This document shows positions 10,009-38,647 of a stretch of 49,566 nucleotides of DNA, piece after piece. The first letter of the stretch is position 1. Each line of letters starts with the position of its first letter. Below the pieces are notes generated by a model, which was not told where the DNA came from, did not search any database, and worked only from the letters and a program-made list of their open reading frames with translations. Source of the stretch: an uncultured archaeon (GTDB lineage Archaea > Halobacteriota > Methanosarcinia > Methanosarcinales > Methanoperedenaceae); assembly GCA_902384525.1 (NCBI GenBank), contig CABMCA010000068.1:1-49566 (forward strand). Reading direction: 5' to 3'. The position numbers and the translations under genes were made by a program.

Positions 10009-11349
10009 ATGCCAGAATATACTTTGTTTTTAGGTTGTATCATCCCCGCACGTTTCCCTTTCATGGAAAAATCAACCAAGCTTGTATTATCACAGCTCGG
10101 TTGCATTCTTCACGATCTTGAAGGATTTACATGCTGCCCTACAAAAAGCATAATCAAGCCGGTCGGAGATCTGGCATGGTACGTAACAGCTGCAAGAAAT
10201 CTGGCCATTGCGCAAAAAGCAGGCCATAACCTTCTGGTTCCATGTAATGGTTGTTACAGCACATTGAAATCCGTGGAAGTCGAAATGCGTATAAATCCCG
10301 GAATGCGGGACGAAGTAAACGCAATCCTTGCTTTTGCCGGCCTGGAATATACAGGAACGGTCGAGGTAAAACATCTTGTTGAGGTGCTTCATGATGAGAT
10401 CGGTTTACCGAAGATCAAACAGCACCTCGTAAAATCATTCGACGGCATGAGAATAGCACCCCATTATGGCTGCCATATGCTTCGTCCCAGTTCATCAATA
10501 ACCTTTGATGACCCCAATAAACCAAAAAAATTCGATGCCTTAATAGAAGCGCTGGGCGCAAAAAGCATCGACTATGGAACAAAAATGCTATGCTGCGGCG
10601 GCAATCTCAATACTGCGGATGAACCGGAGGAGGCAACGGCCCTTGCACGTATGAAACTGATGGAAGTCACAAAAAAAGCGGATGCAATAGCACTTACCTG
10701 TCCATCATGCTTCATGCAATACGATTCACGCCAGTATATGATGCAAAAAACAGGGGAAAAATTGAACGTTCCAATTCTATTTTATCCAGAATTGCTTGGT
10801 CTTGCAATGGGTTTCTCACCGCAGGAACTTGGAATGGATATGCACAGGATCGATTCTGCAGAATTCCTGTCGAAGTGGGATTTAAAATATAAATACCTGA
10901 ATACTTTAAAAGAAGTGTTCGATCTCCCCGCCATCCGTAAATGTTACGAGTGCGCAGCCTGTGTTAATGATTGCCCTGTTGTAAAGGTAAACCCGGATTT
11001 CAATCCAAATGAAATAATTGGAAGATTACTTTCAGGTGAACTTGAGGAAGTAATAGGATCCCACAACATCTGGCAATGCGTTGACTGTTATACCTGTTAT
11101 GAACTCTGTCCGCAGAAAATGGGAATGAATAAGATTTTTGACAAACTAAAGCATATGGCTATTCAAAAAGGAAAGGGGCCAAAAGGCTTTGCTGCAAGTA
11201 TCGAGATGTTCAGGAAAGACGGAAGACTTGGTGAGCCAACAAGTGTGCGAAAGAAACTGAAACTGGCAGAGTCACCAAAGAGCGGGGGAGAAGAATTGAT
11301 TAAATTACTGGATCATATTAATAATAAAGGAGAAGAAAATGAAATCTGA
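10009..11349 (+). CDS. HdrB-HdrC fusion protein (heterodisulfide reductase-like iron-sulfur electron carrier)
   Basis: A 446-residue protein with HdrB and HdrC halves in one chain. Residues 1-290 hold two cysteine-rich CCG domains: C10, C42-C43, C79-xx-C82, and then GCHML, MLCCGGN and CPSC. These bind the noncubane [4Fe-4S] clusters that split disulfides in HdrB. Residues about 305-410 are HdrC-like, with two ferredoxin motifs, CYECAACVNDCP and CVDCYTCYELCP. Normally the subunits are separate. The gene overlaps the glutamate synthase amidotransferase gene by 11 bp, so it is probably an electron-supply or redox partner of that enzyme, or a cytoplasmic Hdr-type module. Its real substrate is unknown. 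Confidence 0.82.
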   Translation: MPEYTLFLGCIIPARFPFMEKSTKLVLSQLGCILHDLEGFTCCPTKSIIKPVGDLAWYVTAARNLAIAQKAGHNLLVPCNGCYSTLKSVEVEMRINPGMRDEVNAILAFAGLEYTGTVEVKHLVEVLHDEIGLPKIKQHLVKSFDGMRIAPHYGCHMLRPSSSITFDDPNKPKKFDALIEALGAKSIDYGTKMLCCGGNLNTADEPEEATALARMKLMEVTKKADAIALTCPSCFMQYDSRQYMMQKTGEKLNVPILFYPELLGLAMGFSPQELGMDMHRIDSAEFLSKWDLKYKYLNTLKEVFDLPAIRKCYECAACVNDCPVVKVNPDFNPNEIIGRLLSGELEEVIGSHNIWQCVDCYTCYELCPQKMGMNKIFDKLKHMAIQKGKGPKGFAASIEMFRKDGRLGEPTSVRKKLKLAESPKSGGEELIKLLDHINNKGEENEI

Positions 11350-12415
11350 TGGAATACCGTCCGGATGTGCGATATCAGGATTAATGAGCGAAGATGGAAG
11401 ACGCATTGGTGGCAAAGTGATTATCCAGTCCATTGCCTGCATGCACGACCGTTCGAACGGGCTTGGCGGAGGGTTTGCAGCCTATGGTATTTATCCAAAA
11501 CGAAAAGACATGTATGCTTTTCACATGATGTTTGATAATATGCAGGCAAAAGAGAACACTGAAGAATTCTTCAAGGATCACTTCAACGTTGATAAGGATG
11601 AAGCCATACCCACGCAAAGGCAAAATGGCGTATCGAATCCTCCAATTCTATGGAGATATTTTCTTGAGGTGCCTGAGAATAAACTTGAATTCCTTTCAGA
11701 GAGAGATTATGTCACAAAAACCGTAATGAAGATACACTCCGAGATAGATGGGGCTTTTGTAGCATCAAGCGGCATGAACATGGGTGCTTTCAAAGGTGTG
11801 GGCTATCCTGAAGACATAGGGAGTTTCTATAAACTGGAAGATTACAATGCATATATATGGACATCCCATGGCAGGTTTCCCACAAATACACCAGGCTGGT
11901 GGGGTGGCGCTCACCCGTTCACTCTTCTTGACTGGTCTGTGGTGCATAACGGTGAAATATCCTCTTACGGGATCAACAAGCGCTATCTTGAGATGTTCGG
12001 TTACAAGCTCGAATTAAGAACCGATACCGAAGTTATCGCTTATATGTTTGACCTGCTCGTTCGAAAGCATAAGCTACCAATTGAAAAGGCAGTTGAAGCG
12101 CTTGCAGCGCCATTCTGGAAAGATATTGACCGCATGGAACCGCAGAAAAAGAAAATGGCAATTGCCCTGAGGCATGTATATGGAAGTACTCTTTTAAATG
12201 GACCTTTTAGCATAATAATTGGACATAGCCGGGGCATGATCGGATTGAACGACAGGATCAAACTTCGCCCTATGACAGCCGCCCGAAAGGACGATATGCT
12301 TTACATGGCATCTGAGGAATCAGCGATCCGGGAAATCGCTCCGGATCTTGATGAAGTATGGAGCCCCAGGGCAGGAACACCTGTTTTTGGGATATTAAAG
12401 GCAGAGGTGGAATAA
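11339..12415 (+). CDS. gltB1: Glutamate synthase, glutamine amidotransferase subunit (archaeal split type)
   Basis: A 358-residue class II (Ntn-type) amidotransferase. It hydrolyses glutamine and delivers ammonia to the FMN subunit. Signatures are GCAISGLM at the N-terminus, SHGRFPTNTPGWWGGAHPF, WSVVHNGEISSYG and RTDTEVIAYMFD. The nucleophile should be Cys10 after removal of nine residues. In bacteria this domain is the N-terminus of the large GltB; here it is a separate gene. The AGGAGAAG site within the end of hdrBC fixes ATG 11339. Confidence 0.9.
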   Translation: MKSDGIPSGCAISGLMSEDGRRIGGKVIIQSIACMHDRSNGLGGGFAAYGIYPKRKDMYAFHMMFDNMQAKENTEEFFKDHFNVDKDEAIPTQRQNGVSNPPILWRYFLEVPENKLEFLSERDYVTKTVMKIHSEIDGAFVASSGMNMGAFKGVGYPEDIGSFYKLEDYNAYIWTSHGRFPTNTPGWWGGAHPFTLLDWSVVHNGEISSYGINKRYLEMFGYKLELRTDTEVIAYMFDLLVRKHKLPIEKAVEALAAPFWKDIDRMEPQKKKMAIALRHVYGSTLLNGPFSIIIGHSRGMIGLNDRIKLRPMTAARKDDMLYMASEESAIREIAPDLDEVWSPRAGTPVFGILKAEVE

Positions 12416-13923
12416 TGGAATCACAACTGCCTGCAGAATTCATTGTTAATATTGACCATGAACGATGCCGAAGATGCAAACGCTGTGTAATTAATTGCAG
12501 TTTCAGCGCTATTGAATTCAAGGATAAGGTCACGATAAACAACAGGCAGTGCGTGGCCTGTCACAGGTGCGCTACATTCTGTCCTGAAAGCGCTATAACG
12601 ATCACCCAAAATCCTCTTGATTACAAAGACGGTTACAACTGGTCGCCTGAGATCAGGAAAAATATTCTCAAACAGGCTGAAAGCGGCGGCATCATACTGA
12701 CGGGCATGGGCAATCCCAAACCGTATCCGATCTACTGGGATCACATGTTGATAGATGCATGCCAGGTGACAAATCCTTCGATCGATCCTCTCCGTGAGCC
12801 AATGGAACTTCGCACATATCTTGGAGCTAAACCTGAATCCCTTGAATTTGAGGGAGATATAAATAATATCAGCCTTAAGACGGAACTTGCGCCGCAGGTG
12901 AAACTGGATATACCCGTTGTTTTCGCGGCGATGTCCTATGGCGCCATAAGCCTGAATGCACACAAGGCGCTTGCAATGGCAGCAAAGCGCATGGGGACGC
13001 TCATGAATACAGGCGAAGGCGGTCTACACGAAGATCTTGCTGGTTATACTGACAGGATAATCGTCCAGGTTGCATCAGGGCGTTTCGGTGTAACAAGCAA
13101 ATACCTGAACAACAGCGCTCTTGTTGAGATCAAGATCGGGCAGGGCGCAAAACCAGGAATTGGCGGGCATCTGCCTGGCGAAAAAGTTGGAGAGGATATC
13201 TCAAAGACCCGTATGATACCTGTTGGCACAGATGCACTATCTCCTGCGCCGCATCATGATATTTATTCAATTGAAGACCTATCTCAATTGATCTATGCAA
13301 TAAAAGAGACCACAGATTATAAGAAACCCGTATCTGTAAAGATCGCGGCCGTTCATAACGTCGCTGCCATCGCCAGCGGCATCGTGCGGGCAGGCGCTGA
13401 TATAGTAATGATAGATGGCTTCAGGGGCGGAACAGGAGCTGCTCCCATGATAATCAGGGATCATGTAGGAATACCCATTGAGCTTGCCCTTGCCGCAGTT
13501 GATGACCGGTTGAGGCAGGAAGGTATCCGCAACCGCGCTTCTATCCTTGTTGGAGGAAGCATCAGGCAGAGCGCTGATGTCGTTAAGGCTATTGCGCTTG
13601 GGGCTGATGCATGTGTCATAGGCACGGCATCACTCATTGCAATGGGCTGCCGCGTGTGCCAGAAATGTTACACAGGCAACTGCGCATGGGGCATTGCGAC
13701 ACAAAAGCCTGAACTTGTGCGCAGGTTGAACCCGGAAGTAGGAGCAGACAGGTTGTGCAACCTGCTTACGGCATGGGGTCATGAGATCCAGGAAGTACTG
13801 GGTTCACTTGGCATAAATGCAATCGAATCTTTGCGCGGAAGCCGTGAGCGCTTGCGAGGGGTTGGATTAAGCCAGGAAACGCTGGATATACTCGGGATCA
13901 AACATGCAGGAATAGGACAGTGA
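12415..13923 (+). CDS. gltB2: Glutamate synthase, FMN-binding synthase subunit with ferredoxin domain
   Basis: A 502-residue central subunit. Residues about 10-70 hold two [4Fe-4S] motifs, CRRCKRCVINC and CVACHRCATFCP. The rest is the FMN beta/alpha barrel, with AMSYGAISLNAHKALAMAAKR, MNTGEGGLHEDL, GQGAKPGIGGHLPG, FRGGTGAAP and the cysteine region CRVCQKCYTGNCAWG that binds the [3Fe-4S] cluster. It reduces 2-iminoglutarate to glutamate. ATG 12415 is used because it follows GAGGTGG and overlaps the preceding stop by one base (TAATG). Confidence 0.93.
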   Translation: MESQLPAEFIVNIDHERCRRCKRCVINCSFSAIEFKDKVTINNRQCVACHRCATFCPESAITITQNPLDYKDGYNWSPEIRKNILKQAESGGIILTGMGNPKPYPIYWDHMLIDACQVTNPSIDPLREPMELRTYLGAKPESLEFEGDINNISLKTELAPQVKLDIPVVFAAMSYGAISLNAHKALAMAAKRMGTLMNTGEGGLHEDLAGYTDRIIVQVASGRFGVTSKYLNNSALVEIKIGQGAKPGIGGHLPGEKVGEDISKTRMIPVGTDALSPAPHHDIYSIEDLSQLIYAIKETTDYKKPVSVKIAAVHNVAAIASGIVRAGADIVMIDGFRGGTGAAPMIIRDHVGIPIELALAAVDDRLRQEGIRNRASILVGGSIRQSADVVKAIALGADACVIGTASLIAMGCRVCQKCYTGNCAWGIATQKPELVRRLNPEVGADRLCNLLTAWGHEIQEVLGSLGINAIESLRGSRERLRGVGLSQETLDILGIKHAGIGQ

Positions 13924-24611: not shown

Positions 24612-24845
24612 TTAATAGCTTAATCTTCGTGAAGGCAATGGCAATCAAATTCCGTAACGCATTTTTTCTGCAGTTTTTCTTTAATACCCGATAAAATTCA
24701 AATTTGGTCACATTGTAAAATTTTTATGTTGCTGAAGAAACTATATATATCATCATAACCATGATAATCCAAATGTAAGTTTTGTGGGTAGGCCATGAAA
24801 TTTATAATTATGGTGTTATTTAAAAATACGGAGGAAATGGTATTA

Positions 24846-27800
24846 ATGAAACGAACTGAGGGTAATATGTTAGGTTTTTTAAGAATAGTTGTGATCACGC
24901 TGCTGTTTTTTGGATTAACAGCAGGAATGGCGAATGCGTTCTCTTTCAGTGGATATACTTTTAATGAAACGAATGCAACATTAAATAATACTAATGTAAG
25001 TATCGAGATTTACAACCCGATGGGGGGACCACAAGGGCAAGGGCCAGTATTGATAGGTACTAACTATACCTCAAGCAATGATGCCGGGTATTTTATTCTA
25101 AATATAAACGGCTCAGAGCCTGAACTACAAAATTATATGTATAAACCTGTATTGAAGCATTTTAAAAATAATGCCTCAACCGGAACTCTTGACTGGATAG
25201 GCCAGTCCCTTCCACAATTCCCGTATTTTATGATATCTACTATCACTGCGAGCGGCCCGATGGATTTTTACCTGAGGAAGGGGGGCACGATATACATGAA
25301 TGCAAGTGGATTAAATGAAACCGGTGTTGTAACACCTCGCGCATTCAAATATATGATTAAAGACACACAACTGGGCTATCCTATAACTCAAAACTTTAGT
25401 GAAGAACAACTGGATGTCGGCCCTATTCATGTTCCTTCAGAACGGAATTATTCTATCATGATATTTCCAAATCAAAGCATACCGGTAAGCTATGACCTTA
25501 ATAATCTTACTAATTACACTGACAGTAATGCAACTATACGTTTCAATACTTCTATCAGGCCATCATGGGTCTCTGGTTATGCAAATCTATCAGATGGTAC
25601 AAGCAACTTCTCTGAATTTGCAATAGTTGCTTATCAACTGGAACCAGGTAATATGATCGGCAAAGACCATCCAATGCCAAATAATATGAGCGCATTCCGT
25701 CCAGGAGGGCCATTCTCGGATACTTATAATGCAACAAATGGCTCTTATAATATTACTTTGCCAGGTTCGGCCCAGGACGATGGAGTAGATATACTGCTTT
25801 TCGCGACTGCGAAAAATGCGACAAATAATCAATATTATGGGGCATTTAAAAACATAACCATGAATTTTTCAGGAAACGATGTCCCAAACTTTAATTTCAC
25901 ACTGTATCCCCTGTTAGGGAATGTCGAAAACATCAGCGTGAACAATATGGGTCTTATGGGACTACCCCAGAACATTACTACTAAAATGCTTCCCTTCCAG
26001 TTGAGGAATGGCACAAACATAACCAGTTTTGCACATATCGAAATAAAGGTAAATTACTCTGCAAAGGGAAGTGCATCCTTTAAATGGATGCTGGATGTTT
26101 CGCAAGCCGCCAATGGTTCATTCTCTATACCCGCGCTCAGTGCGCCCATAAATAAGATCAATGTGTTCATGCAGGATTATGCACCATTAAAGACATCAAA
26201 GACAGCAGATCAATTGGCATCCTGGCCTGTCTTTATTAATGTATCATCTTTCAAGCCAGGGGCGATAAATCAAAGCGCACCGCCACCATCAATTAAGATA
26301 AAAATGCTGAAAAGCAATGAAATCTGCGATGTTCCACAGCCGGCACAGGGCTGCAATTTATTCCGTGACGCCACTGGCGAAAAGAATATGACTGATTTTA
26401 ACCCGTTCAAGATCGTTATGGGCGGAGGTAAAATCAGCCTGAGGATGAAGGATGCTAACACTAACATCACAGTCCATTACAAGAATGTGGATATGCTGGC
26501 TTCAGGACCGCCGGATGCAGTGTTTGATCCCAGTGCAAACCGTTCATCGCAAAACGGCACAGCGCTGGAGCAGGCGTGGAGATTCGGAAGCCTTGGCCCT
26601 GAGATTTATGACGAGGTTCTCATCGGGATTCCTCTTAACGCCAGTGTGCGTGCAGACAACATTGCAGTTAAGCTTGGGAAACTTTACGATGAAAACTGGA
26701 ATGAAACATGGAACATAAGCGACTTACCAGCAAATAGACCATCTGATTATGCTGCCTTCAATGATTCATGGTTCAACGCCACAACAGGCATGCCTTGCAG
26801 TACAACGGATATAAATGCAAAATGCTACTTTAATACGACAAACAGGATGATCTGGCTTAAAATACCCCATTTCTCCGGTCTCAGTGCTGATGTTTCATCA
26901 ACTGTAGGTAATTTTACAGCGAATCTTACCAACGGCACAGGCATCGGAGGGAAAAGCGTAGCCATGAATTTCACGATGAATGATACCGTGAATACTACTT
27001 CATGGTACAACATCACGTTCCCCAGCGGCTTTGATGCAAGTGCGGCTGTAGTTAATATAAGCATCAATGGCTCAGCAGACCCGACGGATTGGACAAGAAA
27101 CGCAGGCACACTCTTCGTGAATGTATCATCAGGCACTGCTTTGGCTAATCTCAGTGAGGTCCAATATATCAATATCAGCAACATATTGCTGGGATCGACA
27201 GGAATTAAAACAATCAACGTTACAACAAGTAACGGATTAATTGTTCCGTTGAATTATACGGTTGCAAATTACGGCGTTAACCTGTCAGTTTCAGGCAATA
27301 CAACAGGGACAACCAACGCAACGGTAAACAAGACATATACACTTCTCCTGCAAAATAACGGGACTGCTACAGATACATACAACCTGACCGTAGATTCAGC
27401 CGGTGCATCAACAGCAGCCCTGAATGTAAGCGGAAATATTACTTTAGGATCAATGCAGACCCAGGTATTACTTCTGAACGTGACAAATACCACAACAGGA
27501 ACTGCTTATGTCAATGTAACTGCACGGTCGTTAAATGATTCGACAAGAGCAGGTTATATCAATACAACCACGACAATTACTGTGGCACCCACAAGAAATG
27601 TCAGCCTCACAGTTAGTCCAGTATCCGCTTCAGCTTCAACCAGGCCTAACGTAAATGCGACCTATACTCTTAACCTGACAAATACAGGAAATATGGAAGA
27701 CACATATACGCTGGCATTAGATGGGGATACTACGGCATCAGTGAATGCTACAAGCGTTCCTTCAATCGATACGCTTGTAGCAGGAGCGTCAAGAATTTTC

Positions 27801-30521
27801 CTGCTCAATGTGACAAATACAACGCAGGGAGTATTCCACATAAATTTGACTGCGACCTCGAACGGTAACAATGGTAAGTTTGCTTCTGTCAATACCACAA
27901 CGTCTGTGACTCTAAATGCCCCTGATGTGGCAGCCTCTTACTGGGGTTATGTCGTCATTAATGGCGTTTTAAGCTCAGCTTATGTTAGTGTACATGGATC
28001 AAACGGTACCGAAGTTGCAAATACGACCAGCTTCTCTAATGGTACGTACCGGGTATCAGTACCGTGGGACGATATCTATACATCCGCTGATGAGGGTGTG
28101 GTTCCAGGAGAAACCATAACTTTCAATGTGAACAATATATCAGTGCTATCAAGAACCATAACTGTAGTCAATAGTGGAAATAATACCAGGCAGGACCTGG
28201 GACTGTACAATGGAACCATAATCGGCAGCGTTCTTAAAGCAACTACGGGCCTTGGAATAGACGGCGCTACAGTTACCATCACGAATGCCACACTTGGCCT
28301 GTCGGTAACTACGACAACCAACTCATTGGGGTCGTATTCAGCTCCGGTTTTCCCTGCAACATACAGGATAAATGTTACAAAGACAGGATACTTAAACAAT
28401 ACTACTACAACCGGTAAGATTGTTACTGCAAATACCAGCACACCAGTAGCTGCCATTTTGCTTTCCCCCAATACAGTCACAGTAACAGCAAACAGGACAG
28501 TGGGATCAGCAGATGCAGGACAGAATGTCGCTTTCAACCTGACAGTGGTTAATACAGGTGAAAATGCGACGTTCAGTGTAGTGACCTCTGTTACAAATAG
28601 TACGACAGCGACAAACACTACAACACCATCTCCGCTGCTGCTTAATACCACTACATCCGCAGGAAATGTAGTTATATTAGTGAACAACGGCAACCTTGGA
28701 GGCTGGCCTGTCACAGTAACTATCAGCAACGCTTCACAGTCAAAGACCGCGAGCATCACACTGAATGCGATCATGAGGAATTCAAGCGTAGCTAACACCA
28801 CAATCAACAGTACGGTCAACAATTCAAACGTCACAGGCGGTGCATACCTGGAAAATACAAGTGTTGATAATTCAACAGTCGCAAATGCAACATTGATATA
28901 TGCAATTGTACAGAACAATGCAACCATCTCAGGCAACTCGACGTTGATAATGAATTCAACCATAACAGGTCCGGGTACAATAATCACTGATGGCTCGGTT
29001 ATCAAAGGCACTTACAATGCTTCCTACATAGACAACTCCACAATTGGAAATGCATCTGTTGATAGTTCGAACATTACCAGTTCAACCATAAGTGGTAATG
29101 CATCGATCACAAATTCGACACTGACCGGCGCGACTGTTGCCAACTCCACACTTAACTATGTGATAGTGACAGGATATAACTCAATAACAATGACTGGAGG
29201 GAGCACGATAACGAATACAGTCGGTTTGAGCAATATCACACTGGGTGGTGTTGTTGTAACAGGCGACCCAGCTTATGATTATCAAGGCAAGATATCTGCC
29301 GGCAATGGTTGGGTGATTTACCAGAATATAAACTTCACAAAGATATACGAAGCTGTCCGCATATCACAGATGGTTATTGAGCAGAGTGGAGATATAATTA
29401 TTCCAGCAAACATATCTACTCGCATAAATGACACCACTCATGGCGTTTCCAGGAACATCAGTATGAATGTTACTGCCAGCAAGTGGATGGCCATAAACAT
29501 CTCAGAAACATTCATAAGCCCTGATGGTGTCGGATTAGGTTCAGGAAAAATCGGGAACTATCTGGTCATCCGGAGCAATGACACATCGAATGTCACGAAC
29601 CATACCCTGAGATTATACCTTGACACCAATCTGGCAAATTATTCAAGTATCAAGATATATTATTACAATACAACAGCACTTGCATGGCAAGCTTTGACAA
29701 CAACTGCAAGCGGTAATGAAAGCGGCAGATGGTATGTTGAAGCAGCACCCAACCACTTCAGCACCTTTGCTTTGCTTGGAACACCCACATCCACTACATC
29801 CCCAGGCGGCGACAGCAGTAGCGGCGGCGGAAATAGCGGCGGCGGCGGTGGAGGTGGCGGAGGAGGCAGATCAGGTGAGAACACATCCAACATCGAGTTG
29901 ATCGAGAAATATGATATGGAGATCTCAAAGGACACCCTGACATCCTACAGGTTCACACATGAAAAGAACCCCATAATGTACGTCAATATAACTGGCAATA
30001 CCAGCATTGGGGTTATTACGGCATCGGTAGAAGTATTGAAGAATACCTCGACCCTCGTGAACTTCCCTGCTGAAGGACTTGTGTATAAGAACGCCAATAT
30101 CTGGGTGGGAACTGCGGGCTTTGCAACACCAAAGAACATCAAGGATGCTCTCATCAAATTCAGGGTCGCAAATTCCTGGATGAGTGAGAACAGCGTTCAA
30201 AACAGCGCTCTGGTTCTTGAGAAATGGGATGGTAGCAACTGGATACAGCTTGAGACAAAGTTCTTGTCAAAGGATGATACCTACTCGTACTTTGAGGGCA
30301 GGACAAATTCCTTCTCGCCCTTTGCAATAGTTGCAACGTCAAGTGGACAGGCAACTCCCACAGCAACATCCACCCCGGCCGAAACACCCACACCCGGACC
30401 AACAGGAAAACCGGGTCCTGGAGAGGCGGGGGGTATCCCGTCATGGATCATCGGATTGATAATCCTTGTGATCATCGGGGCTGCAGCATACTATTTCCTG
30501 GTGGTGAAGAAGAATGAGTAA
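24846..30521 (+). CDS. Giant exported surface protein with PGF-pre-PGF domain and C-terminal membrane anchor
   Basis: An ~1891-residue secreted protein. ATG 24846 is chosen because GGAGG stands 11 bases upstream and a signal peptide follows (LGFLRIVVITLLFFGLTAGM, cleavage near ANAFS). The body is Asn/Thr/Ser-rich with very many N-x-S/T glycosylation sites. In order: unique N-terminal region; two beta-sandwich repeats (about 820-1020); an SYWGY domain (about 1026-1120); a carboxypeptidase-regulatory-like domain (about 1125-1215); a beta-helix-like Asn/Thr repeat region (about 1308-1475); a Gly-rich linker (about 1651-1675); a PGF-pre-PGF domain (about 1681-1831); a Thr/Pro stalk; and a terminal membrane helix (about 1863-1888). 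It is probably an envelope scaffold or adhesin. Confidence 0.85.
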   Translation: MKRTEGNMLGFLRIVVITLLFFGLTAGMANAFSFSGYTFNETNATLNNTNVSIEIYNPMGGPQGQGPVLIGTNYTSSNDAGYFILNINGSEPELQNYMYKPVLKHFKNNASTGTLDWIGQSLPQFPYFMISTITASGPMDFYLRKGGTIYMNASGLNETGVVTPRAFKYMIKDTQLGYPITQNFSEEQLDVGPIHVPSERNYSIMIFPNQSIPVSYDLNNLTNYTDSNATIRFNTSIRPSWVSGYANLSDGTSNFSEFAIVAYQLEPGNMIGKDHPMPNNMSAFRPGGPFSDTYNATNGSYNITLPGSAQDDGVDILLFATAKNATNNQYYGAFKNITMNFSGNDVPNFNFTLYPLLGNVENISVNNMGLMGLPQNITTKMLPFQLRNGTNITSFAHIEIKVNYSAKGSASFKWMLDVSQAANGSFSIPALSAPINKINVFMQDYAPLKTSKTADQLASWPVFINVSSFKPGAINQSAPPPSIKIKMLKSNEICDVPQPAQGCNLFRDATGEKNMTDFNPFKIVMGGGKISLRMKDANTNITVHYKNVDMLASGPPDAVFDPSANRSSQNGTALEQAWRFGSLGPEIYDEVLIGIPLNASVRADNIAVKLGKLYDENWNETWNISDLPANRPSDYAAFNDSWFNATTGMPCSTTDINAKCYFNTTNRMIWLKIPHFSGLSADVSSTVGNFTANLTNGTGIGGKSVAMNFTMNDTVNTTSWYNITFPSGFDASAAVVNISINGSADPTDWTRNAGTLFVNVSSGTALANLSEVQYINISNILLGSTGIKTINVTTSNGLIVPLNYTVANYGVNLSVSGNTTGTTNATVNKTYTLLLQNNGTATDTYNLTVDSAGASTAALNVSGNITLGSMQTQVLLLNVTNTTTGTAYVNVTARSLNDSTRAGYINTTTTITVAPTRNVSLTVSPVSASASTRPNVNATYTLNLTNTGNMEDTYTLALDGDTTASVNATSVPSIDTLVAGASRIFLLNVTNTTQGVFHINLTATSNGNNGKFASVNTTTSVTLNAPDVAASYWGYVVINGVLSSAYVSVHGSNGTEVANTTSFSNGTYRVSVPWDDIYTSADEGVVPGETITFNVNNISVLSRTITVVNSGNNTRQDLGLYNGTIIGSVLKATTGLGIDGATVTITNATLGLSVTTTTNSLGSYSAPVFPATYRINVTKTGYLNNTTTTGKIVTANTSTPVAAILLSPNTVTVTANRTVGSADAGQNVAFNLTVVNTGENATFSVVTSVTNSTTATNTTTPSPLLLNTTTSAGNVVILVNNGNLGGWPVTVTISNASQSKTASITLNAIMRNSSVANTTINSTVNNSNVTGGAYLENTSVDNSTVANATLIYAIVQNNATISGNSTLIMNSTITGPGTIITDGSVIKGTYNASYIDNSTIGNASVDSSNITSSTISGNASITNSTLTGATVANSTLNYVIVTGYNSITMTGGSTITNTVGLSNITLGGVVVTGDPAYDYQGKISAGNGWVIYQNINFTKIYEAVRISQMVIEQSGDIIIPANISTRINDTTHGVSRNISMNVTASKWMAINISETFISPDGVGLGSGKIGNYLVIRSNDTSNVTNHTLRLYLDTNLANYSSIKIYYYNTTALAWQALTTTASGNESGRWYVEAAPNHFSTFALLGTPTSTTSPGGDSSSGGGNSGGGGGGGGGGRSGENTSNIELIEKYDMEISKDTLTSYRFTHEKNPIMYVNITGNTSIGVITASVEVLKNTSTLVNFPAEGLVYKNANIWVGTAGFATPKNIKDALIKFRVANSWMSENSVQNSALVLEKWDGSNWIQLETKFLSKDDTYSYFEGRTNSFSPFAIVATSSGQATPTATSTPAETPTPGPTGKPGPGEAGGIPSWIIGLIILVIIGAAAYYFLVVKKNE

Positions 30522-30528
30522 GAATCCA

Positions 30529-30552
30529 GGGGCTTTATGCCCCCTATTTTAT
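30529..30552 (+). terminator. Hairpin after the giant surface protein
   Basis: GGGGC and GCCCC flank the loop TTTAT, followed by CTATTTTATT. It starts eight bases after the stop codon and may terminate or attenuate transcription before the cytochrome gene. Confidence 0.45.
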
Positions 30553-30587
30553 TGTCATGAAATCATGCTAACTAAAAAGGAGATTAA

Positions 30588-33287
30588 ATGAAAATGAAGG
30601 AGGATAAAATTATGAGAAAAGGAATATTAACAGGTATAGGAATTTTGATAATACTGCTGGCGCTGGCAGGAATTGGAAGCGCATATCCTAACGGAGGATT
30701 GGGGTGGGGCTGTACTACATGTCATTCATCCATAACGCCCTCGATGGCAACTTTTTACAATCAGACGCATCGTTACAATGATACTGTAATTAATCCATTA
30801 TACTGTGATACTTGCCATGTTGATGTCTCAAAGAAGGTCAGTCTGCCTAACCCCATGAATTTCTCTCTTAGAACAGGCACCCCAACATACCTGAACTCTT
30901 CAGTATGCGAAGACTGCCACAAGGTGAAGTACGATAACTGGAGAAACACAATGCACCGTGTCATGTTGACCAAGAACACTTCAGGTGCGTTGATGAACCT
31001 CAGTCTTCCAGACGGGTTGAACTGGTCTAATACGAATGTGTCTTATATGATAGTAGGTAAGTCCGGTTTTTATTACCTTAATGCGACAGGATATTTATTC
31101 AGGAAATATAACGTTGTAACAGGGGCATTTTCGCCTTATAACACAACCGCTCCAGAAACTAGACCCCAATACTCATGTGGCGGCTGTCATACCACAGGCT
31201 ATAATGCAACCAACGGGAACCAGAGCAATTTATCAGGAATAATAGGAACATGGGCCGAGGAAGGAATTACATGCGAGAACTGTCATGGACCTGGCGGCAA
31301 CGGCCATAATGTGACCGTTTACACCAAGGGCGAGGATTGTATGAGATGCCATTATGGCGCTGGCAGGCAGGGACTGGCAATGACTAACCGTCATGCAACC
31401 GCTCCTGCTGAAGAATCCACAAGCTCCAGCTGTACTTTCTGTCATTCGCCGTATGATAATTACAAAACTGGAAAAGTTTCATCACTTTCTGATGCTTCAA
31501 ATGTCACATGTTCAATTTGCCACAATCCCCATAATACAACAGATGATAAGTACGCAGGTCTTCTCGCGCCAAATGGTTTCAACAATATCAGCTATGCCAC
31601 TGTTGAAGATGTGAAATTAAGCTTCTTCAACGGAACCGCAAGTAATACCAGCAGGAATGCAGGTTCAAATGCTTCGCTGACAGCAGGCAACGATATTTAT
31701 GATATCCTTATGACGCCTGCATATCTGTATTCCGGGAGCGTTTCATCCAGAAAAGACTCCAACTACGGAAATGGATCTATAAACGTAACAGGTCCTGTAT
31801 CTGAAGTTCTCTGCTCCAAGTGCCACTACAGGCACGGCCTGGGTCACATAGCGAATGTGAATCTTACTCACGGCAGGAATAATGTAACTAACAGCAGCGA
31901 AACGGCAACATGCATTGACTGCCACATGTCCAATGCAGGCGGCAAGACGGAGCATACCTTCGATGCGCAGAATGCAACGAACTACCCGAAGTATACCTGT
32001 TCAAAGGGTACGAATTGCCATGTGACAAGCGCACAGAACCTGAGTTTGAGCAACGGCTCGATAGTTCCCCTGCAAACTGAATGGGATGTAAGCAGGCATA
32101 ACAAAACCCAATTTTACAAAAATGATTCGTATTTTGCAAACCAGACTGGCTTTAGCAGCAGCGGCAGCCCCGGCGAAAACAACAGCGATTGCATGAAATG
32201 CCATTCACCGTTTGAATGGAATCCGTTGTATACAATTAAAAATGTATCGGATTTCAGGGGTGTAACATGCGCGGTTTGTCATAATATTCATGATATGGGC
32301 GACTCGATCAACGCATCAGGTCTGAAATATAGCTGGTACAACAGGGATGCAGTGCCTGTCCTGAATAGCACAACTGGCGCTATAGAAAGATACAAAGCTA
32401 ACTACACACTGATGGCAAATACCACAGAACTGTGTGGCAACTGCCACTCGAATGATAATCCCAGAATATATAAGGCAGGACCTGGCTGGAATGGAACAGA
32501 CGCTACCAGTACTAGCGCTACAGTTTATCCGATTTCATCACACGGTCGGCCAGCGAAGGATCTTTTCCTTAGCTCTCCGAAGCAGTCAGGTCAGAACTTC
32601 GAATGTATTGATTGCCACATGTATACCAACAAGACCAATGCCACAGGACTCATGAGCGATACCGATAAGATAACAGGACATAGCTTCACAGTGAATAAAA
32701 CCGGTCTTCAGAATACTTCAAGATGCAGAGGCTGCCATGATGGATCATCATATGCTACAATTTCAGACAGGATTGCAACTGTACAAGCCGCTACCCAGGC
32801 GAAGTGGAATACCACTAACTCAACAGTTATGGGTGCACTGGCATATTATAAGTCCTATACAGGCGTGAAGAACCTGAGCGCGGATAAGATCGCCAGGGCA
32901 TACTGGAATCTCAAGCTGGTGTCATCAGACGACAGCTGGGGTGTACATAACCCGGATAAGGCGACTACACTGCTTGACGAAGCTGCAGCTTATGCGGCTG
33001 CTTCAAATGCCTCTCTCGGACATGCATTGGTATCCACAGTCAATCTGACCGCAGGATGGAACCTGAAGTCTCTCGAAAATGCATCAGCGGTTACATCGCC
33101 GGTCTCGATAATGTCTTCGGTGTCGAGCAATATAACCGTAGTCTGGGGTTACAATACCAGCAACCCGGCAGATCCATGGGAATTGTATGACCCTGCCATG
33201 CCATCATCTCTTAACGATCTGACGGAGATCGTTTCGGGAGAAGGGTACTGGATATATGCACTAAGAGATTGCGTGTGGACTGTATAA
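30588..33287 (+). CDS. Exported multiheme c-type cytochrome (15 CxxCH plus one CX5CH)
   Basis: An 899-residue cytochrome with a signal peptide (residues about 10-32, cut near GSAYPNG). I count 15 CxxCH haem sites plus CSKGTNCH at residue 471. The N-terminal part resembles the cytochrome c554 group: CEDCHKVKYDNWRNTMH, CGGCHTTGYNA and ITCENCHGPGGNGH. Two CIDCHM units are each followed by an HTF/HSF and another haem site. The last ~80 residues lack haem and end in GEGYWIYALRDC, like small modules found in other archaeal surface proteins. ATG 30588 follows GGAG; ATG 30612 follows GGAGG and is also possible. It probably carries electrons outside the membrane. Confidence 0.9.
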   Translation: MKMKEDKIMRKGILTGIGILIILLALAGIGSAYPNGGLGWGCTTCHSSITPSMATFYNQTHRYNDTVINPLYCDTCHVDVSKKVSLPNPMNFSLRTGTPTYLNSSVCEDCHKVKYDNWRNTMHRVMLTKNTSGALMNLSLPDGLNWSNTNVSYMIVGKSGFYYLNATGYLFRKYNVVTGAFSPYNTTAPETRPQYSCGGCHTTGYNATNGNQSNLSGIIGTWAEEGITCENCHGPGGNGHNVTVYTKGEDCMRCHYGAGRQGLAMTNRHATAPAEESTSSSCTFCHSPYDNYKTGKVSSLSDASNVTCSICHNPHNTTDDKYAGLLAPNGFNNISYATVEDVKLSFFNGTASNTSRNAGSNASLTAGNDIYDILMTPAYLYSGSVSSRKDSNYGNGSINVTGPVSEVLCSKCHYRHGLGHIANVNLTHGRNNVTNSSETATCIDCHMSNAGGKTEHTFDAQNATNYPKYTCSKGTNCHVTSAQNLSLSNGSIVPLQTEWDVSRHNKTQFYKNDSYFANQTGFSSSGSPGENNSDCMKCHSPFEWNPLYTIKNVSDFRGVTCAVCHNIHDMGDSINASGLKYSWYNRDAVPVLNSTTGAIERYKANYTLMANTTELCGNCHSNDNPRIYKAGPGWNGTDATSTSATVYPISSHGRPAKDLFLSSPKQSGQNFECIDCHMYTNKTNATGLMSDTDKITGHSFTVNKTGLQNTSRCRGCHDGSSYATISDRIATVQAATQAKWNTTNSTVMGALAYYKSYTGVKNLSADKIARAYWNLKLVSSDDSWGVHNPDKATTLLDEAAAYAAASNASLGHALVSTVNLTAGWNLKSLENASAVTSPVSIMSSVSSNITVVWGYNTSNPADPWELYDPAMPSSLNDLTEIVSGEGYWIYALRDCVWTV

Positions 33288-33307
33288 GTCCACACTTTTT
33301 ATTTTTT
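33273..33307 (+). terminator. Intrinsic-type terminator overlapping the cytochrome stop codon
   Basis: GTGTGGACT (33273-33281) and AGTCCACAC (33287-33295) form a perfect 9-bp stem with loop GTATA, followed by TTTTTATTTTTTT. The stop codon TAA (33285-33287) lies in the loop and stem, so the last codons of the cytochrome encode the terminator. Confidence 0.75.
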
Positions 33308-33319
33308 TGGAGTGACAGA

Positions 33320-34336
33320 ATGAAAAAAAATATATTATTAATAATACTATTGTTTTTGGTCCCCCTGGGCCAGGCAATCAGCGAACCGCTTGTGACTTCT
33401 TACTGGGGTTATGTGACCGTAGATGGCATCACAAAGCCAAATGCGTCGGTTACAGTGCTTGATTCATCATGCAATGTAGTTGCAAGCGCAACGAGCACGC
33501 AAGATTCTACGTACCTGGTAAAAGTACCCCTGGATCAAGGACTAGCTTCAGGCGAGACCCTGACTTTCAATGTAGATGACAAAACCGCAAAAACACTAAC
33601 AGTTGGCGGCAAAGGAACAAACAACAGGCTGGACCTGGCAGTATCAGGTTCTTCAACGAATACTTGTACTGTCGGAGGAGGTGGAAGCGTCAACGGCGGC
33701 TCCGGAGGCGGAGCCAGTATTTCTGCAGAATCCTCTGACAACATCATAAAGAAAGAAGTGAGGGAAGAAGTCTTATCCATAAATGTTCCCAGGTCATTTC
33801 GTTTCACGACCCCGGAACTGCCCGTTTCCGAGGTAGCGGTAACGAGCAATATCAATGCCGGTCTTATAAATGTCCAGGTCGAGCTTCTTAAGAGCAGGTC
33901 AACACTGGTGAAAGACGATGCACCCGGAGATGTTTATAAATACGTCAATATCTGGGTTGGCACATCAGGTTTTGCAGTGCCAAAGAACATAAAAGAAGCT
34001 GTTATCAAATTCAAACTTGAGAATTCCTGGCTGACATCAAAAGGTTTCAAAGAATCGGATATAGCAATGCTGAGATGGGACGGAACACAATGGATATCGC
34101 TTGCTACTGAGAAAAAGAACAGTGATGAGACGTTTACGTACTATGAGGCAAAGACCAACGCATTCTCACCGTTTGCCATCTCAGGCGTTAAAGGGACAGT
34201 GCCTGCGGCCGGGGCTGAAGTAACTAACCAGACGCAAACTCCTGCACCTGCGGCTACTAAAAAAGCGCCAGGGTTAGAGTTCGTTCTTGCCATAGCGGGT
34301 TTGATGGCTGTAGTTTTAAGAAAGAGAAGCAAGTAG
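33320..34336 (+). CDS. Exported PGF-pre-PGF domain protein with PGF-CTERM-like anchor
   Basis: A 338-residue secreted protein. ATG 33320 follows GGAGTGA and opens a signal peptide (ILLIILLFLVPLGQAIS). An SYWGY domain (about 25-110) and a PGF-pre-PGF domain (about 155-300, with YKYVNIWVGTSGFAVPKNIK) are both close relatives of domains in the 1891-residue protein upstream. The C-terminus KKAPGLEFVLAIAGLMAVVL followed by RKRSK has the form of a PGF-CTERM signal, which archaeosortase A processes and lipid-links. It is therefore probably anchored to the outer face of the membrane or S-layer. Confidence 0.87.
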   Translation: MKKNILLIILLFLVPLGQAISEPLVTSYWGYVTVDGITKPNASVTVLDSSCNVVASATSTQDSTYLVKVPLDQGLASGETLTFNVDDKTAKTLTVGGKGTNNRLDLAVSGSSTNTCTVGGGGSVNGGSGGGASISAESSDNIIKKEVREEVLSINVPRSFRFTTPELPVSEVAVTSNINAGLINVQVELLKSRSTLVKDDAPGDVYKYVNIWVGTSGFAVPKNIKEAVIKFKLENSWLTSKGFKESDIAMLRWDGTQWISLATEKKNSDETFTYYEAKTNAFSPFAISGVKGTVPAAGAEVTNQTQTPAPAATKKAPGLEFVLAIAGLMAVVLRKRSK

Positions 34337-34340
34337 CTAT

Positions 34341-34368
34341 CTCTTTTTACTTTTTTTTATTTTTTTAT
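34341..34368 (+). terminator. Oligo-T terminator after PGF protein
   Basis: Three T-runs (5, 8 and 7 T residues broken by AC or A) follow the stop, a typical archaeal termination signal. Confidence 0.6.
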
Positions 34369-34553
34369 GTTAGTCAGCTTTTGATCTTTAAAATAAAATT
34401 AAACTACATAAAATTAATATAGTACTAAAAAATGGCTGTCATAATTTAATAGGGCGGTCCTGCAATACTAAAGTTAATATATCATCAAATTCATATCATA
34501 ATAATAATAATGACAAGAAACCATTATCATATAAATTATATTGAGTATATTAT

Positions 34554-37500
34554 ATGAAAAAGATCCCTATCATACTGGCATTGTTGGCCTATCTTACATT
34601 CCTCAGCTCAGCAGGCAATGCGCTTGAATGCATGGTATGCCATAGCTCTGATGCGAACGAATTCCCTTTAATTAACCTATCTCTTTTCGGTGTTCACGCG
34701 GATGTCAATTCTACAGATGGGGCAGGAAATATTACAAGTGGGGACTGCATAGCATGCCATTATTCGGCCAATACATTGGTTTTCCATAGTTTTCCAATAT
34801 CCACATATAACTGCGAAGACTGCCATATCAACGGAACAGTTCCGGCTGCTCCCAGGGTTTCTAATCATAACCGGAGTGGAAATATTTCTGTAGCCGCTTT
34901 TTGCAGCGATTGCCATAACAAGACCTCAAATCTTTTCAGATACAGCGCCAATGCAAGTGCAGCACATTATGGAAGGAACGCAAGTTTCGGCCAGTCTCCA
35001 GGCGAGTCGTACTGTGCTTTTTGCCATCAGAATTCCTCATCTGTTTACCGGGATTTAATGCAAAACCAGGATAATAGCAGGAGAGGAAACCATACATCCG
35101 GCATAATCAATCTCAACCATCCCGCAGGGCGCCCCGATTGCACGACCTGCCACGGGACTGACAGGATACACGGCACAAACCTGACAAAGCCGGTTCCGAA
35201 TTCAGGATTCTGCAATAACTGTCATCAGAGCGACAGGCTGCAAAAGGACAGGCACGCAGGAAGTGTGGAATGCATACTGTGCCATGCAGATACGGACTCG
35301 GATATCCATAATATAAAATATTTACTTCCTGATGGAACATATCGCAGCGTGAACGCTACCGGCTGCGGAGATTGTCATGATTTCGGACTTCCAGCGCCTT
35401 ACTTCAGGCTCCAGTTCCAGGAAGCGAACTGCACTACCTGCCACCTGGGGAACGGCCTGATAAAATTTGCAGGCGCGCCGCGCTTTCCCTCGCCATTGAT
35501 GCACAGTTCTAATCCTGCTTCCGGGAGATTGTGGAACGGCACACAGGCCGCTTACTGGAACAGCCAGGTAAATGCCTGCTATTATTGCCATGGGTATAAG
35601 CTTCATGATACAAATCCACTTGGAAATGTCTCGAATATCACTGCGGGAAACGCCCTGAACCAGAGCATTACAAATAAAAGTTTCTGGTGCGCCAACTGCC
35701 ATTACAATGGCAGTGACCCGGCTGGAAATTATTCATATAAAGCAACATCCTATACTCCGGTACCACCTGAAATGCAGAACAAGTCCGGGCGTGTTCCCGC
35801 AACAGCAAGCGATGGGACTACTTTCTACAACCACTCGCTGGCTGAATATTCCGATCTTGCATGCAAGACATGCCATGCACCGAATTCTTCTGCAACAAGC
35901 GCTTTATTCATTCATAATGTTGCCGCAGGCGGAGGAGGTCCAAACTGCATCTCCTGCCATGATAGCAGAGGTGGAGGTGCGCCTGCCGATAAGAGAATAG
36001 ATATTGTTTCATTTAATTTGAGCGTGCATTATAACATGAACGGCGGCGGGAACGGTGCGTGCTGGGCATGTCACGGCGATGGGACTGCACCTCTGGGACA
36101 TCCAGCGGGATATAAATCGCCGAAGAAGTGCAGTAATGATGCGTGCCATTCCCTTGACCAGAAATTCCGCGCTCCCATGATATATTCACATTTCAGGAAT
36201 GCAAGCCTGATTGACAACCCGAATAATGTTGTCAATTACAATGTAACAACCAGCAATGACTGCCAGGGATGCCATGCAAACAGCGTAAATTCACAGGGCA
36301 GGAACATAAATTCAACCGTATCCCATTTTGCCTCAGGCGATCTCTTTGACAGTATCAATTGCATATACTGCCATCTTAATAAGGACAATTCCAGGATATG
36401 GGGGAATGCTACGTTGATATACGAGAACAGGACTGCACTTGTAGAACTCAACAGGGAAAATAACAAATTCAATTCCAGGGAGGGGGAATCTGTGGACTTT
36501 GGTTTCGGTTTCAGCTTCAAAGTGCTTGAAGTCTCATCAGTCAGGAGCAGCGTGCTGATGGAACTTATAAAAGAAAATGTAATTGTAGATAAGAGACTTG
36601 TAGGTATTGGAAATTATACATATGAGGAGTACCTCACTATAGACAATGGAAGTGAAAAAGTGCCTGTAATTGTAATTAATATCACAGGCATTTTTAAAGG
36701 AAATGATACTGGCTTTGTCCAGTTTGAAGGTTTCAGGCTCAAAAGAGTCCATCCTGAGAAAAAAATCACGTCATGTTATTCATGCCATATGAAAGCAATG
36801 CCAAAAGCAAAGTATAGAGTCATCGAAAGGGTCAGTGGTGAGAACAGTGAGAAAGATGAGATCTATTACACTAAAGAAACGGCCAATTTTACAGATAATA
36901 AAATATTCGATGAAAATGTTGTTCTTCAATTATTAGGAGTACTTACTGACAAAGACCTGCATGTGACCATACAGCCGGAAAAACACAGGTCACTGTATGA
37001 AGGAGAAGTCTGGAATATCTCGGAAGGAACAAGCCTTGTGGTAAGAGGCGTGGATACAAAAAGCGAAGTTGTTATTCTCCAGCTGCGTACCGGCGATTAT
37101 TTTTATGAGGATATCGTAAACAGGGGTGGTATATTTGAATTCACTCCGCAAATTAATTATCTTGGGAACCAGCCAAAAAATATCACGGTTTTCAGGGCAA
37201 GGGTGTCGGGAATAATCCAGGCAAGGCCGAAAAACATGGTAGTTATTGAGGATGTGGTTTCCCTGTCGCCTGATATCAGGAAAATAAATGCAAATCAGAC
37301 GCTTGCTGGTTATAATACAAGCTGGCTGTGGGAAAATTCAACCATTAACGTTGGAAAAATCCCTGATAATTTCCATTCTCCCCAGATATATGACGGCGGC
37401 AACGGTGGGGGAAACTGTCTTTCCTGCCACGGGGCGGAGGGTTTTTCACAGAAAAAAGTATTCTCACTCGGAAAGCATGATATTTTAAACGGCGGAGGGA

Positions 37501-38105
37501 ACAATGCCTGCCGCGCATGTCATGGCGGGACTGCGGATATACAGGCGCATCCGGCTGGTTACAAGAACCCCAGGAACTGCCTGAGCTGTCATGCAGCTAC
37601 AAATAATAATTATAACGCCGTGTACATAGGTGACGAGGAGCATAAGAACGAAAAGTGTGAAACCTGCCACGTATCAAATATCCATGTAATTACAGGGCTG
37701 CACATGACGCCCTCAGTCAAAAAAATAGTAATTACAAAAGAAAATAACATGACCATATTGAGAGCATCGGTATCTGCCGGATATAAAATGAAAGTAAGAG
37801 ATGCCAGGTATTACATTGATACACCGCTTAATAAATCCGGGATGTCCCCGGTAGACGGTGTTTTTGATTCACAGGCAGAGGATGTATCTGCCCGGATGGA
37901 TCTATCAAAATTATCGTCAGGCAAACATGTGGTGTATGTTGAAGCAATGGAGAGAAAAAACAATTGGGGGGTGCCATCTTCAGTTGAGTTCATAACAGAG
38001 GGCGGGAGTTTGAAAGTCCCGGAGACGAAAAACACAAGTATGCTCACATTGGCAGACACGTTAGCTATATTAATGATCGTTTTTGTTTTGAGACGTTTTA
38101 GATAA
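34554..38105 (+). CDS. Very large exported multiheme c-type cytochrome with S-layer-like beta region (22 CxxCH plus one CX4CH)
   Basis: An 1183-residue cytochrome. Residues 1-24 are a signal peptide (ILALLAYLTFLSSAGNA). I count 22 CxxCH sites plus CSNDACH at residue 526: 18 in the first ~610 residues, one near 740, and four near 960-1045. The long intervals about 620-735 and 760-930 are haem-free and beta-rich (FSFKVLEVSSVRSSVLMELI, YEGEVWNISEGTSLVVRGVD), resembling the duplicated domain of Methanosarcina S-layer proteins. The C-terminus ends in a hydrophobic helix and RRFR, a membrane anchor. Cytochrome plus S-layer-like fusions are known in ANME archaea and thought to carry electrons through the S-layer. 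Confidence 0.88.
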   Translation: MKKIPIILALLAYLTFLSSAGNALECMVCHSSDANEFPLINLSLFGVHADVNSTDGAGNITSGDCIACHYSANTLVFHSFPISTYNCEDCHINGTVPAAPRVSNHNRSGNISVAAFCSDCHNKTSNLFRYSANASAAHYGRNASFGQSPGESYCAFCHQNSSSVYRDLMQNQDNSRRGNHTSGIINLNHPAGRPDCTTCHGTDRIHGTNLTKPVPNSGFCNNCHQSDRLQKDRHAGSVECILCHADTDSDIHNIKYLLPDGTYRSVNATGCGDCHDFGLPAPYFRLQFQEANCTTCHLGNGLIKFAGAPRFPSPLMHSSNPASGRLWNGTQAAYWNSQVNACYYCHGYKLHDTNPLGNVSNITAGNALNQSITNKSFWCANCHYNGSDPAGNYSYKATSYTPVPPEMQNKSGRVPATASDGTTFYNHSLAEYSDLACKTCHAPNSSATSALFIHNVAAGGGGPNCISCHDSRGGGAPADKRIDIVSFNLSVHYNMNGGGNGACWACHGDGTAPLGHPAGYKSPKKCSNDACHSLDQKFRAPMIYSHFRNASLIDNPNNVVNYNVTTSNDCQGCHANSVNSQGRNINSTVSHFASGDLFDSINCIYCHLNKDNSRIWGNATLIYENRTALVELNRENNKFNSREGESVDFGFGFSFKVLEVSSVRSSVLMELIKENVIVDKRLVGIGNYTYEEYLTIDNGSEKVPVIVINITGIFKGNDTGFVQFEGFRLKRVHPEKKITSCYSCHMKAMPKAKYRVIERVSGENSEKDEIYYTKETANFTDNKIFDENVVLQLLGVLTDKDLHVTIQPEKHRSLYEGEVWNISEGTSLVVRGVDTKSEVVILQLRTGDYFYEDIVNRGGIFEFTPQINYLGNQPKNITVFRARVSGIIQARPKNMVVIEDVVSLSPDIRKINANQTLAGYNTSWLWENSTINVGKIPDNFHSPQIYDGGNGGGNCLSCHGAEGFSQKKVFSLGKHDILNGGGNNACRACHGGTADIQAHPAGYKNPRNCLSCHAATNNNYNAVYIGDEEHKNEKCETCHVSNIHVITGLHMTPSVKKIVITKENNMTILRASVSAGYKMKVRDARYYIDTPLNKSGMSPVDGVFDSQAEDVSARMDLSKLSSGKHVVYVEAMERKNNWGVPSSVEFITEGGSLKVPETKNTSMLTLADTLAILMIVFVLRRFR

Positions 38106-38280: not shown

Positions 38281-38369
38281 GGGCTCGTAGCTCAGTCAGG
38301 CAGAGCACCGGGCTTTTATTCAAATGAGAAGAAACCCGATGGTCGAGGGTTCAAATCCCTCCGAGCCCG
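38281..38369 (+). tRNA. tRNA-Lys (UUU) with 15-nt intron
   Basis: GGGCTCG and CGAGCCC form the acceptor stem. The D stem is GCTC/GAGC, the T arm GAGGG-TTCAAAT-CCCTC, and the discriminator base G. The anticodon loop has CT-TTT-A, anticodon TTT. A 15-nt intron (38319-38333) follows base 37. Pairing CTTT with GAAG between two 3-nt bulges gives the bulge-helix-bulge motif cut by archaeal splicing endonuclease. The anticodon stem CCGGG/CCCGA has one C-A mismatch at 27-43. CCA is not encoded. Confidence 0.93.
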
Positions 38370-38389
38370 TCTGCCCGGGAGGTAATTGT

Positions 38390-38647
38390 GTGAAAGAGAA
38401 AGAGAATACCGGCAGGGAGTTCAATCCCCTAAAACATAGAATGGTACCGAATCACGAAATATTAAGTGAAGATGAAGTTGAAAAAGTATTAACCGAATTC
38501 AAAGTAGAAAAAGAGCAATTGCCTAAAATCCGAGTAATAGATCCTACTGTAGTAGCAGCAAAAGCAAAAGTTGGAGATGTGATACGGATCACCCGGGAAA
38601 GCAAAACGGCAGGTATAGCTTATTATTATCGCATGGTAATCGCGTGA
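38390..38647 (+). CDS. rpoH: RNA polymerase subunit H (RpoH/Rpb5-like)
   Basis: An 85-residue small core subunit of RNA polymerase, homologous to the C-terminal part of eukaryotic Rpb5. VPNHEILSEDEVEKVL, LPKIRVIDP and GDVIRITRESKTAGIAYYYR are conserved. GTG 38390 is chosen because GGGAGGT lies six bases upstream and it keeps the residues before VPNHEIL that homologues have; ATG 38441 is a shorter alternative. It begins 20 bases after tRNA-Lys and may share its transcript. Confidence 0.92.
   Translation: MKEKENTGREFNPLKHRMVPNHEILSEDEVEKVLTEFKVEKEQLPKIRVIDPTVVAAKAKVGDVIRITRESKTAGIAYYYRMVIA

Follow-up and report, generated by a model that had tools for sequence, protein, structure and literature searches.

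How do anaerobic methanotrophic (ANME) archaea retain at the cell surface large extracellular cytochromes that have no anchor of their own? Published models comprise S-layer fusions and cytochromes carrying their own anchor; S-layer fusion cytochromes, cytochromes anchored by a PGF-CTERM of their own, and dockerin/cohesin proteins have all been described for ANME archaea (PMC9012536, PMC5244752). The issue is raised by a locus in the 49,566-nucleotide stretch analysed here (the window), contig CABMCA010000068.1 of an uncultured Methanoperedenaceae archaeon, which is contig C68 of the 2.9 Mb genome G000. G000 represents Candidatus Methanoperedens and stands near strain BLZ2. The locus contains four genes, labelled g1 to g4, encoding a secreted, glycosylation-rich protein, a cytochrome, a small anchored protein and an S-layer cytochrome, respectively. 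A preliminary description, made from the sequence alone, took the locus to serve surface electron transfer in an ANME archaeon, which our analysis supports, and assigned the two non-haem proteins the role of positioning both cytochromes. We find instead that the constant unit is g2 together with a membrane-anchored neighbour, a pairing that is well supported.

A cytochrome paired with a membrane-anchored neighbour

The gene g2 (30588..33287, forward strand) encodes an 899-residue cytochrome with a signal peptide, 15 CxxCH motifs and one CX5CH motif, and without a C-terminal membrane anchor. Its orthologues mostly have 16 CxxCH motifs and one CX5CH motif, the window copy having lost one N-terminal CxxCH repeat. 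Together with the 22 CxxCH motifs and one CX4CH motif of g4, this reproduces exactly the preliminary count of 39 haem motifs; g1 and g3 contain none. Open reading frames (ORFs) confirm the four same-strand genes and their positions. Hydropathy, used here in place of SignalP, places a signal-like hydrophobic stretch at the N-terminus of all four proteins and, again by hydropathy only, a C-terminal hydrophobic helix in g1, g3 and g4 and none in g2. Domain matches speak against a chance observation: cytochrome c7, c3 and c554 families were matched in g2 and g4 (Pfam, NCBIfam). The last 84 residues of g2 (residues 816-899; 33033..33284, forward strand) form a domain, overlooked in the preliminary description, with the pattern L..GWNL...G.GYW. 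This GWNL domain, which we propose to be a docking tail, gave no match in Pfam or NCBIfam even at E<=10.

Fourteen genomes with g2 were compared, in 13 of which its neighbour is visible (in G031 it is cut off by the contig end). In all 13, g2 with a single GWNL tail lies directly beside a membrane-anchored partner, whether g3, g1 or both, across a gap of mostly 30-33 bp (40 bp in G002). One g2-partner pair comes from another family (G067, locus L151). A longer g2 paralogue of about 920-1510 residues has no such partner beside any of its 10 copies in 10 genomes. In G019 the g2-partner pair has been tandemly duplicated as a unit (contig C104, L176:1993-8974), and the partners, of 208-209 residues, consist of an Ig-like domain and a PGF-CTERM anchor without the PGF-pre-PGF domain found in g1 and g3. 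The Ig-like domain is the only extracellular domain left in these short proteins, which points to it and the anchor as the essential parts.

The larger neighbourhood is less constant. The full order g1-g2-g3-g4 occurs in three of the 14 genomes, namely those of the window, BLZ2 (G018) and G021, while METP1 (G003) and Fe_173 (G014) have g2-g3-g4 on one strand. These genomes favour a single dedicated complex of the four gene products, with g1 and g3 as the scaffold of the two cytochromes, as the preliminary description had it. Against such a complex, g4 lies on another contig in G020, G004, G015 and G019, and it is convergent with g2 in G013, G024 and G031; altogether g4 is linked to g2 in eight genomes, three of them with opposite orientation. 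The cassette g1-g2-g3 occurs without g4 in FeB_1 (G020), RBG 1 (G004) and probably G002, whose contig breaks off inside a g1-like gene. The g3-g4 spacer of 217 bp, which is very AT-rich, also counts against the complex. Finally, g4 has an S-layer domain and a membrane helix of its own, so g1 and g3 are unlikely to position it; they go with g2 only. We therefore regard a dedicated four-gene complex as very improbable. The idea of g1-g4 as one invariant operon was likewise rejected. Lack of a conserved neighbourhood, which would have spoken against the preliminary description, is not what we observe: the flanking of g2 by g1 and g3 is kept in relatives. Conservation holds for g2 with its anchored partner or partners and fails for the four genes as one unit.

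The anchored partners

The product of g3 (33320..34336, forward strand) has 338 residues, comprising an Ig-like domain, a Gly/Ser linker, a PGF-pre-PGF domain (TIGR04213, E 3e-45) and a PGF-CTERM-like tail. Its N-terminal YWGY Ig-like domain (residues 26-109; 33395..33646, forward strand) is the proposed receptor of the g2 tail. The C-terminal PGF-CTERM-like archaeosortase signal (34262..34333, forward strand), KAPGLEFVLAIAGLMAVVLRKRSK, has the PG[FL] signature, the transmembrane helix and the basic tail all present; the METP1 orthologue has APGFG at the signature. Curated PGF-CTERM models gave no match to g3 of the window, and a short G019 partner scored 18.2 against the PF18204 cut-off of 18.8. 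Two archaeosortase A genes (TIGR04125) above cut-off are present in G000. In its PGF-CTERM-like tail and PGF-pre-PGF domain, and in the presence of archaeosortase A genes, g3 resembles proteins anchored by the PGF-CTERM/archaeosortase A system, with the difference that the anchor is on the product of a partner gene and not on the cytochrome g2 itself.

The gene g1 (24846..30521, forward strand) encodes an enlarged form of the upstream membrane-anchored partner of g2. Its 1891 residues are counted from the ATG at 24846, the longest ORF beginning at 24795. It contains 132 N-glycosylation sequons (6.9 per 100 residues), which bears out its description as glycosylation-rich. An internal YWGY Ig-like domain (residues 1031-1120; 27936..28205, forward strand) is common to the N-terminus of g3, and a PGF-pre-PGF domain (TIGR04213, E 3e-50; residues 1678-1830; 29877..30335, forward strand) is followed by a transmembrane helix at 30447-30503. 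The earlier observation that two non-haem proteins with common domains flank a cytochrome is thus upheld. The same cannot be said of the giant size of g1, which is not essential, because in three genomes (METP1, G015 and G024) the upstream slot is filled by a version of 352-375 residues. The two types of partner end differently: downstream partners have the PGF-CTERM-like tail, whereas upstream partners (352 to 1891 residues) have a different helix ending like YFLVVKK.

An AlphaFold model of g3 had a predicted local distance difference test (pLDDT) score of 63 and found no match in the PDB reaching E 0.001; a PDB sequence search with g3 returned low-complexity noise only. The PGF-pre-PGF part of the model gave repeated sub-threshold Foldseek matches to the GAIN domains of adhesion G protein-coupled receptors (best E 1.4e-3). 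A GPS-like motif ends the PGF-pre-PGF domain, reading AFSPFAI in g3 (residue 281) and SFSPFAI in g1, and an additional HFSTFAL motif in g1 (residues 1637-1643) resembles a self-cleavage site. The possible likeness of the PGF-pre-PGF part to a GAIN domain, which comes from a predicted model, is only a lead. The suggestion that g3 might be a cytochrome maturation factor was rejected, as it has no such domain.

A cohesin/dockerin pair of the same layout

The genome of the window also encodes a pair of proteins whose docking domains are recognisable. On contig C123 (L197:820-3878), two consecutive genes overlap by 4 bases. The first encodes a secreted protein that bears cohesin domains and ends in a dockerin; the product of the second begins with a cohesin and continues with a PGF-pre-PGF domain and a transmembrane helix. 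The cohesin/dockerin pair with a PGF-pre-PGF stalk is also found in G018 and, in two copies, in G021 (L198, L194, L200). The dockerin-tailed cohesin protein and the cohesin/PGF-pre-PGF/transmembrane protein of Methanoperedens have the make-up of a compact archaeal anchoring scaffoldin pair.

The parallel with g2 and g3 is close: a secreted protein with a C-terminal candidate docking domain stands beside a separate anchored protein with an N-terminal candidate receptor, and the stalk is the same PGF-pre-PGF domain. By analogy, this shared two-gene layout suggests that short PGF-pre-PGF proteins serve as membrane stalks, their N-terminal domain accepting the C-terminal domain of a neighbour. Unlike the cohesin/dockerin pair, g2 and g3 have no recognisable docking modules (Dockerin_1 gave no match in g2, nor did Cohesin in g3), and GWNL and YWGY have no entry as a docking pair in Pfam or NCBIfam.

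The S-layer cytochrome

Fusions of S-layer domains and cytochromes were reportedly first described by McGlynn et al. in 2015. The gene g4 (34554..38105, forward strand) encodes an 1183-residue protein of this kind, with 22 CxxCH motifs and one CX4CH motif. Its S-layer domains, overlooked in the preliminary description, were detected as two stretches of PF07752 (DUF1608; E 2.8e-15) and by a match to S_layer_rel_Mac (E 1.7e-13) under that family's own cut-off. A haem-rich N-terminal part is followed by the S-layer pair (residues 632-726 and 804-915; 36447..37298, forward strand; Pfam, NCBIfam and motif scan), a last haem cluster and a C-terminal hydrophobic segment (residues 1161-1179). Between the two S-layer subdomains lies a single haem motif, CYSCH, at residue 741, which is kept in 12 of 12 orthologues. 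All 23 haem motifs, including CX4CH, are intact in the same 12 proteins (51-92% identity); among relatives in Ca. Methanoperedens, identity is 92% for BLZ2, 80% for METP1, 72% for FeB_1 and RBG 1, and 58% for ANME-2D. Pfam and NCBIfam detected in g4 neither the peptidase M6-like region of type B nor the pectin-lyase region of type C, and a PDB sequence search gave no match.

ANME multihaem cytochromes (MHCs) of type A are defined by an S-layer domain, a single haem motif in the subdomain linker and a C-terminal transmembrane helix (PMC9012536, Chadwick et al. 2022). Because its order of features fits this type, and in view of independent reports of S-layer cytochromes, g4 is on sequence grounds a known kind of protein that belongs to ANME MHC type A; it also shares the 23 haem motifs and the ANME-2d host. 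Among those reports, a 23-haem S-layer MHC was upregulated on electrodes (PMC10874420), and a 22-haem S-layer cytochrome was among the highly expressed ones during Mn-dependent growth (PMC7082337). METP1 has two S-layer cytochromes, the larger with 23 motifs (PMC9039326); this protein, METP1_00516, is probably the METP1 orthologue of g4, in which we count 22 CxxCH motifs and one CX4CH motif. What distinguishes g4 from published type A proteins is its place next to the g1-g2-g3 cassette, seen in the window and in some relatives, for which we found no counterpart in the literature searched.

Affinities of the anchorless cytochrome

The strongest Pfam match of g2 is to MtrC/MtrF-type domains. A g2 profile also matched, in the PDB, the uncharacterised cytochrome 6i5b (5e-22), the octahaem sulfite reductase MccA (2.5e-8) and NrfA (2.6e-6), and the C-terminal helices of g2 match cytochrome c552 (PF02335). 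These latter matches would suit a g2 that is displayed by g3 and acts chiefly as a redox enzyme at the surface, akin to the octahaem/NrfA/MccA cytochromes, rather than as an electron wire. We consider this quite improbable, given that g2 has 15-16 haems, about twice the octahaem size, that its strongest match lies with the MtrC/MtrF type, and that the catalytic haem motif CxxCK is not in g2, every CxxC being followed by His. Segments of g2 thus resemble MtrC/OmcA, MccA and NrfA in sequence, while the haem number, the unusual CX5CH, the GWNL domain and the lack of CxxCK set the protein apart from all of them. No porin partner was found among the g2 neighbours examined, and no relatives of g2 were found in viral contigs.

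Expression of g2 may already have been recorded. In the ANME-2D strain, no protein in 410 kb other than the g2 orthologue has 16 CxxCH motifs, and the orthologue lies approximately 179 called ORFs from two 5-haem cytochromes, themselves two ORFs apart. This spacing fits the genes Methanoperedens_00214, 00388 and 00391, the first of which was reported as a 16-heme cytochrome 38-fold up with iron (PMC10542353). The 8-heme gene 00559, which the numbering also predicts, was not found, and the mapping of g2 to Methanoperedens_00214 is therefore unproven.

Proposed mechanism of tethering

Taken as a whole, the locus is best explained by a two-stage surface electron path in which g2 is tethered by g3, and possibly by g1, a reading that we favour with modest confidence. 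In this proposal g4, integrated in the S-layer, would carry electrons through the cell wall, while g2 would be a separate secreted cytochrome of 15-16 haems, unable to anchor itself. The GWNL tail of g2, in the position of a dockerin, would be tethered to the YWGY Ig-like domain of g3, perhaps also to that of g1, in the position of a cohesin. The PGF-pre-PGF stalk and hydrophobic tail of g3 or g1 would be fixed in the membrane, in the case of g3 via the archaeosortase signal. Once docked, g2 would be positioned at the outer face, near g4 in those species that make the two, and its electron partners would be external acceptors and either g4 or other cytochromes of the surface. Physical docking of the tail to the Ig-like domain, to which the conserved linkage, the recurrence of the tail and the cohesin/dockerin analogy point, seems to us slightly on the probable side; for an electron relay between g2 and g4 the chances look about even, and the direction of electron flow is one that we infer.

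GWNL tails, single or in tandem, also end other secreted proteins encoded before a g3-like PGF-pre-PGF gene. One, in G018 (contig C50, L101:9217-13845), is a 1542-residue surface protein with glucose/sorbosone dehydrogenase, cupredoxin and CHRD domains, two CxxCH motifs and a tandem GWNL tail; others include proteins of 461-472 residues (G015, G024) and a 1315-residue laminin-G protein (METP1). G005 and G009 each have a row of three genes (L094:3875-12204, L095:2662-10986), which encode a 28-29 haem cytochrome with a GWNL-like C-terminus, non-orthologous to g2 (approximately 22% identity), then a g3-like protein, then a g4-like S-layer cytochrome. Across nine genomes, a PGF-pre-PGF domain lies within 1.5 kb of 11 of 18 GWNL genes against 0.15 expected (P about 5e-19), or 13 of 18 when upstream partners are included; collapsed to cargo families, the count is four of seven (P about 2e-7). 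The GWNL profile was built partly from copies beside g3-like genes, and the adjacency count is therefore biased upward.

This bias is one of several points that weigh against tethering by a neighbour. The GWNL domain occurs widely among surface proteins of Methanosarcinales, often in tandem, and many copies have no PGF-pre-PGF neighbour; outside the family, such a neighbour occurs at only four of 20 sampled GWNL loci (16 without), and at one of the four (L164) the GWNL match was not reproduced in our own search. The upstream partner is the only one in G015 and G024, and the AlphaFold model of g2, built from five sequences, was unusable (pLDDT 31). Several genomes encode g4 away from g2, so that a relay dedicated to these two cytochromes is not a universal feature. 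The many GWNL copies without a PGF-pre-PGF neighbour mean that the domain may do something else, for instance bind sugars: the tail itself would bind surface glycans or S-layer sugars as an ordinary adhesion domain, g3 and g1 being co-regulated neighbours rather than receptors. The richness of the envelope proteins of the locus in glycosylation sites would suit such a role. It accounts poorly for the linkage of g2 to a partner in every testable genome at a near-constant gap, for the duplication of the pair as a unit with the partner trimmed to its Ig domain in G019, and for the true cohesin/dockerin pair of the same layout, and we consider it rather unlikely. Returning to tethering, a wider version can be put forward tentatively, at a little short of even chances, in which GWNL and YWGY would form a second, non-cohesin/dockerin docking system of Methanosarcinales archaea, mounting interchangeable redox proteins (multihaem cytochromes, a quinoprotein/cupredoxin protein) on archaeosortase-anchored surface stalks.

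Other features of the window

An intron-containing tRNA (38281..38369, forward strand), overlooked in the preliminary description, lies between g4 and the rpoH/rpo RNA polymerase genes downstream and marks the end of the cytochrome locus. Rfam detected it, as did ARAGORN when introns were permitted; the default mode missed it. The tRNA overlaps a called ORF (38324-38647) and is directly upstream of rpoH. ARAGORN assigns it as Leu(aag), while by eye the anticodon arm is more like Lys(UUU).

Further upstream, the region 10009-13923 encodes a 446-residue HdrB-HdrC fusion (heterodisulfide reductase, Hdr), followed by two genes resembling parts of glutamate synthase, the second with an N-terminal ferredoxin-like region. 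These genes might allow Hdr to feed electrons to an enzyme resembling glutamate synthase.

Significance

Text searches of the open-licence literature turned up general surveys alone, none of which described a cytochrome whose anchor is encoded by a separate gene. A conserved pair of cytochrome and anchor genes with a sequence-recognisable tail would offer a concrete, testable answer to how large anchorless cytochromes are held at the surface of ANME archaea, and the GWNL tail may serve to predict, among the secreted redox proteins of methane-oxidising archaea, those that are held at the surface.

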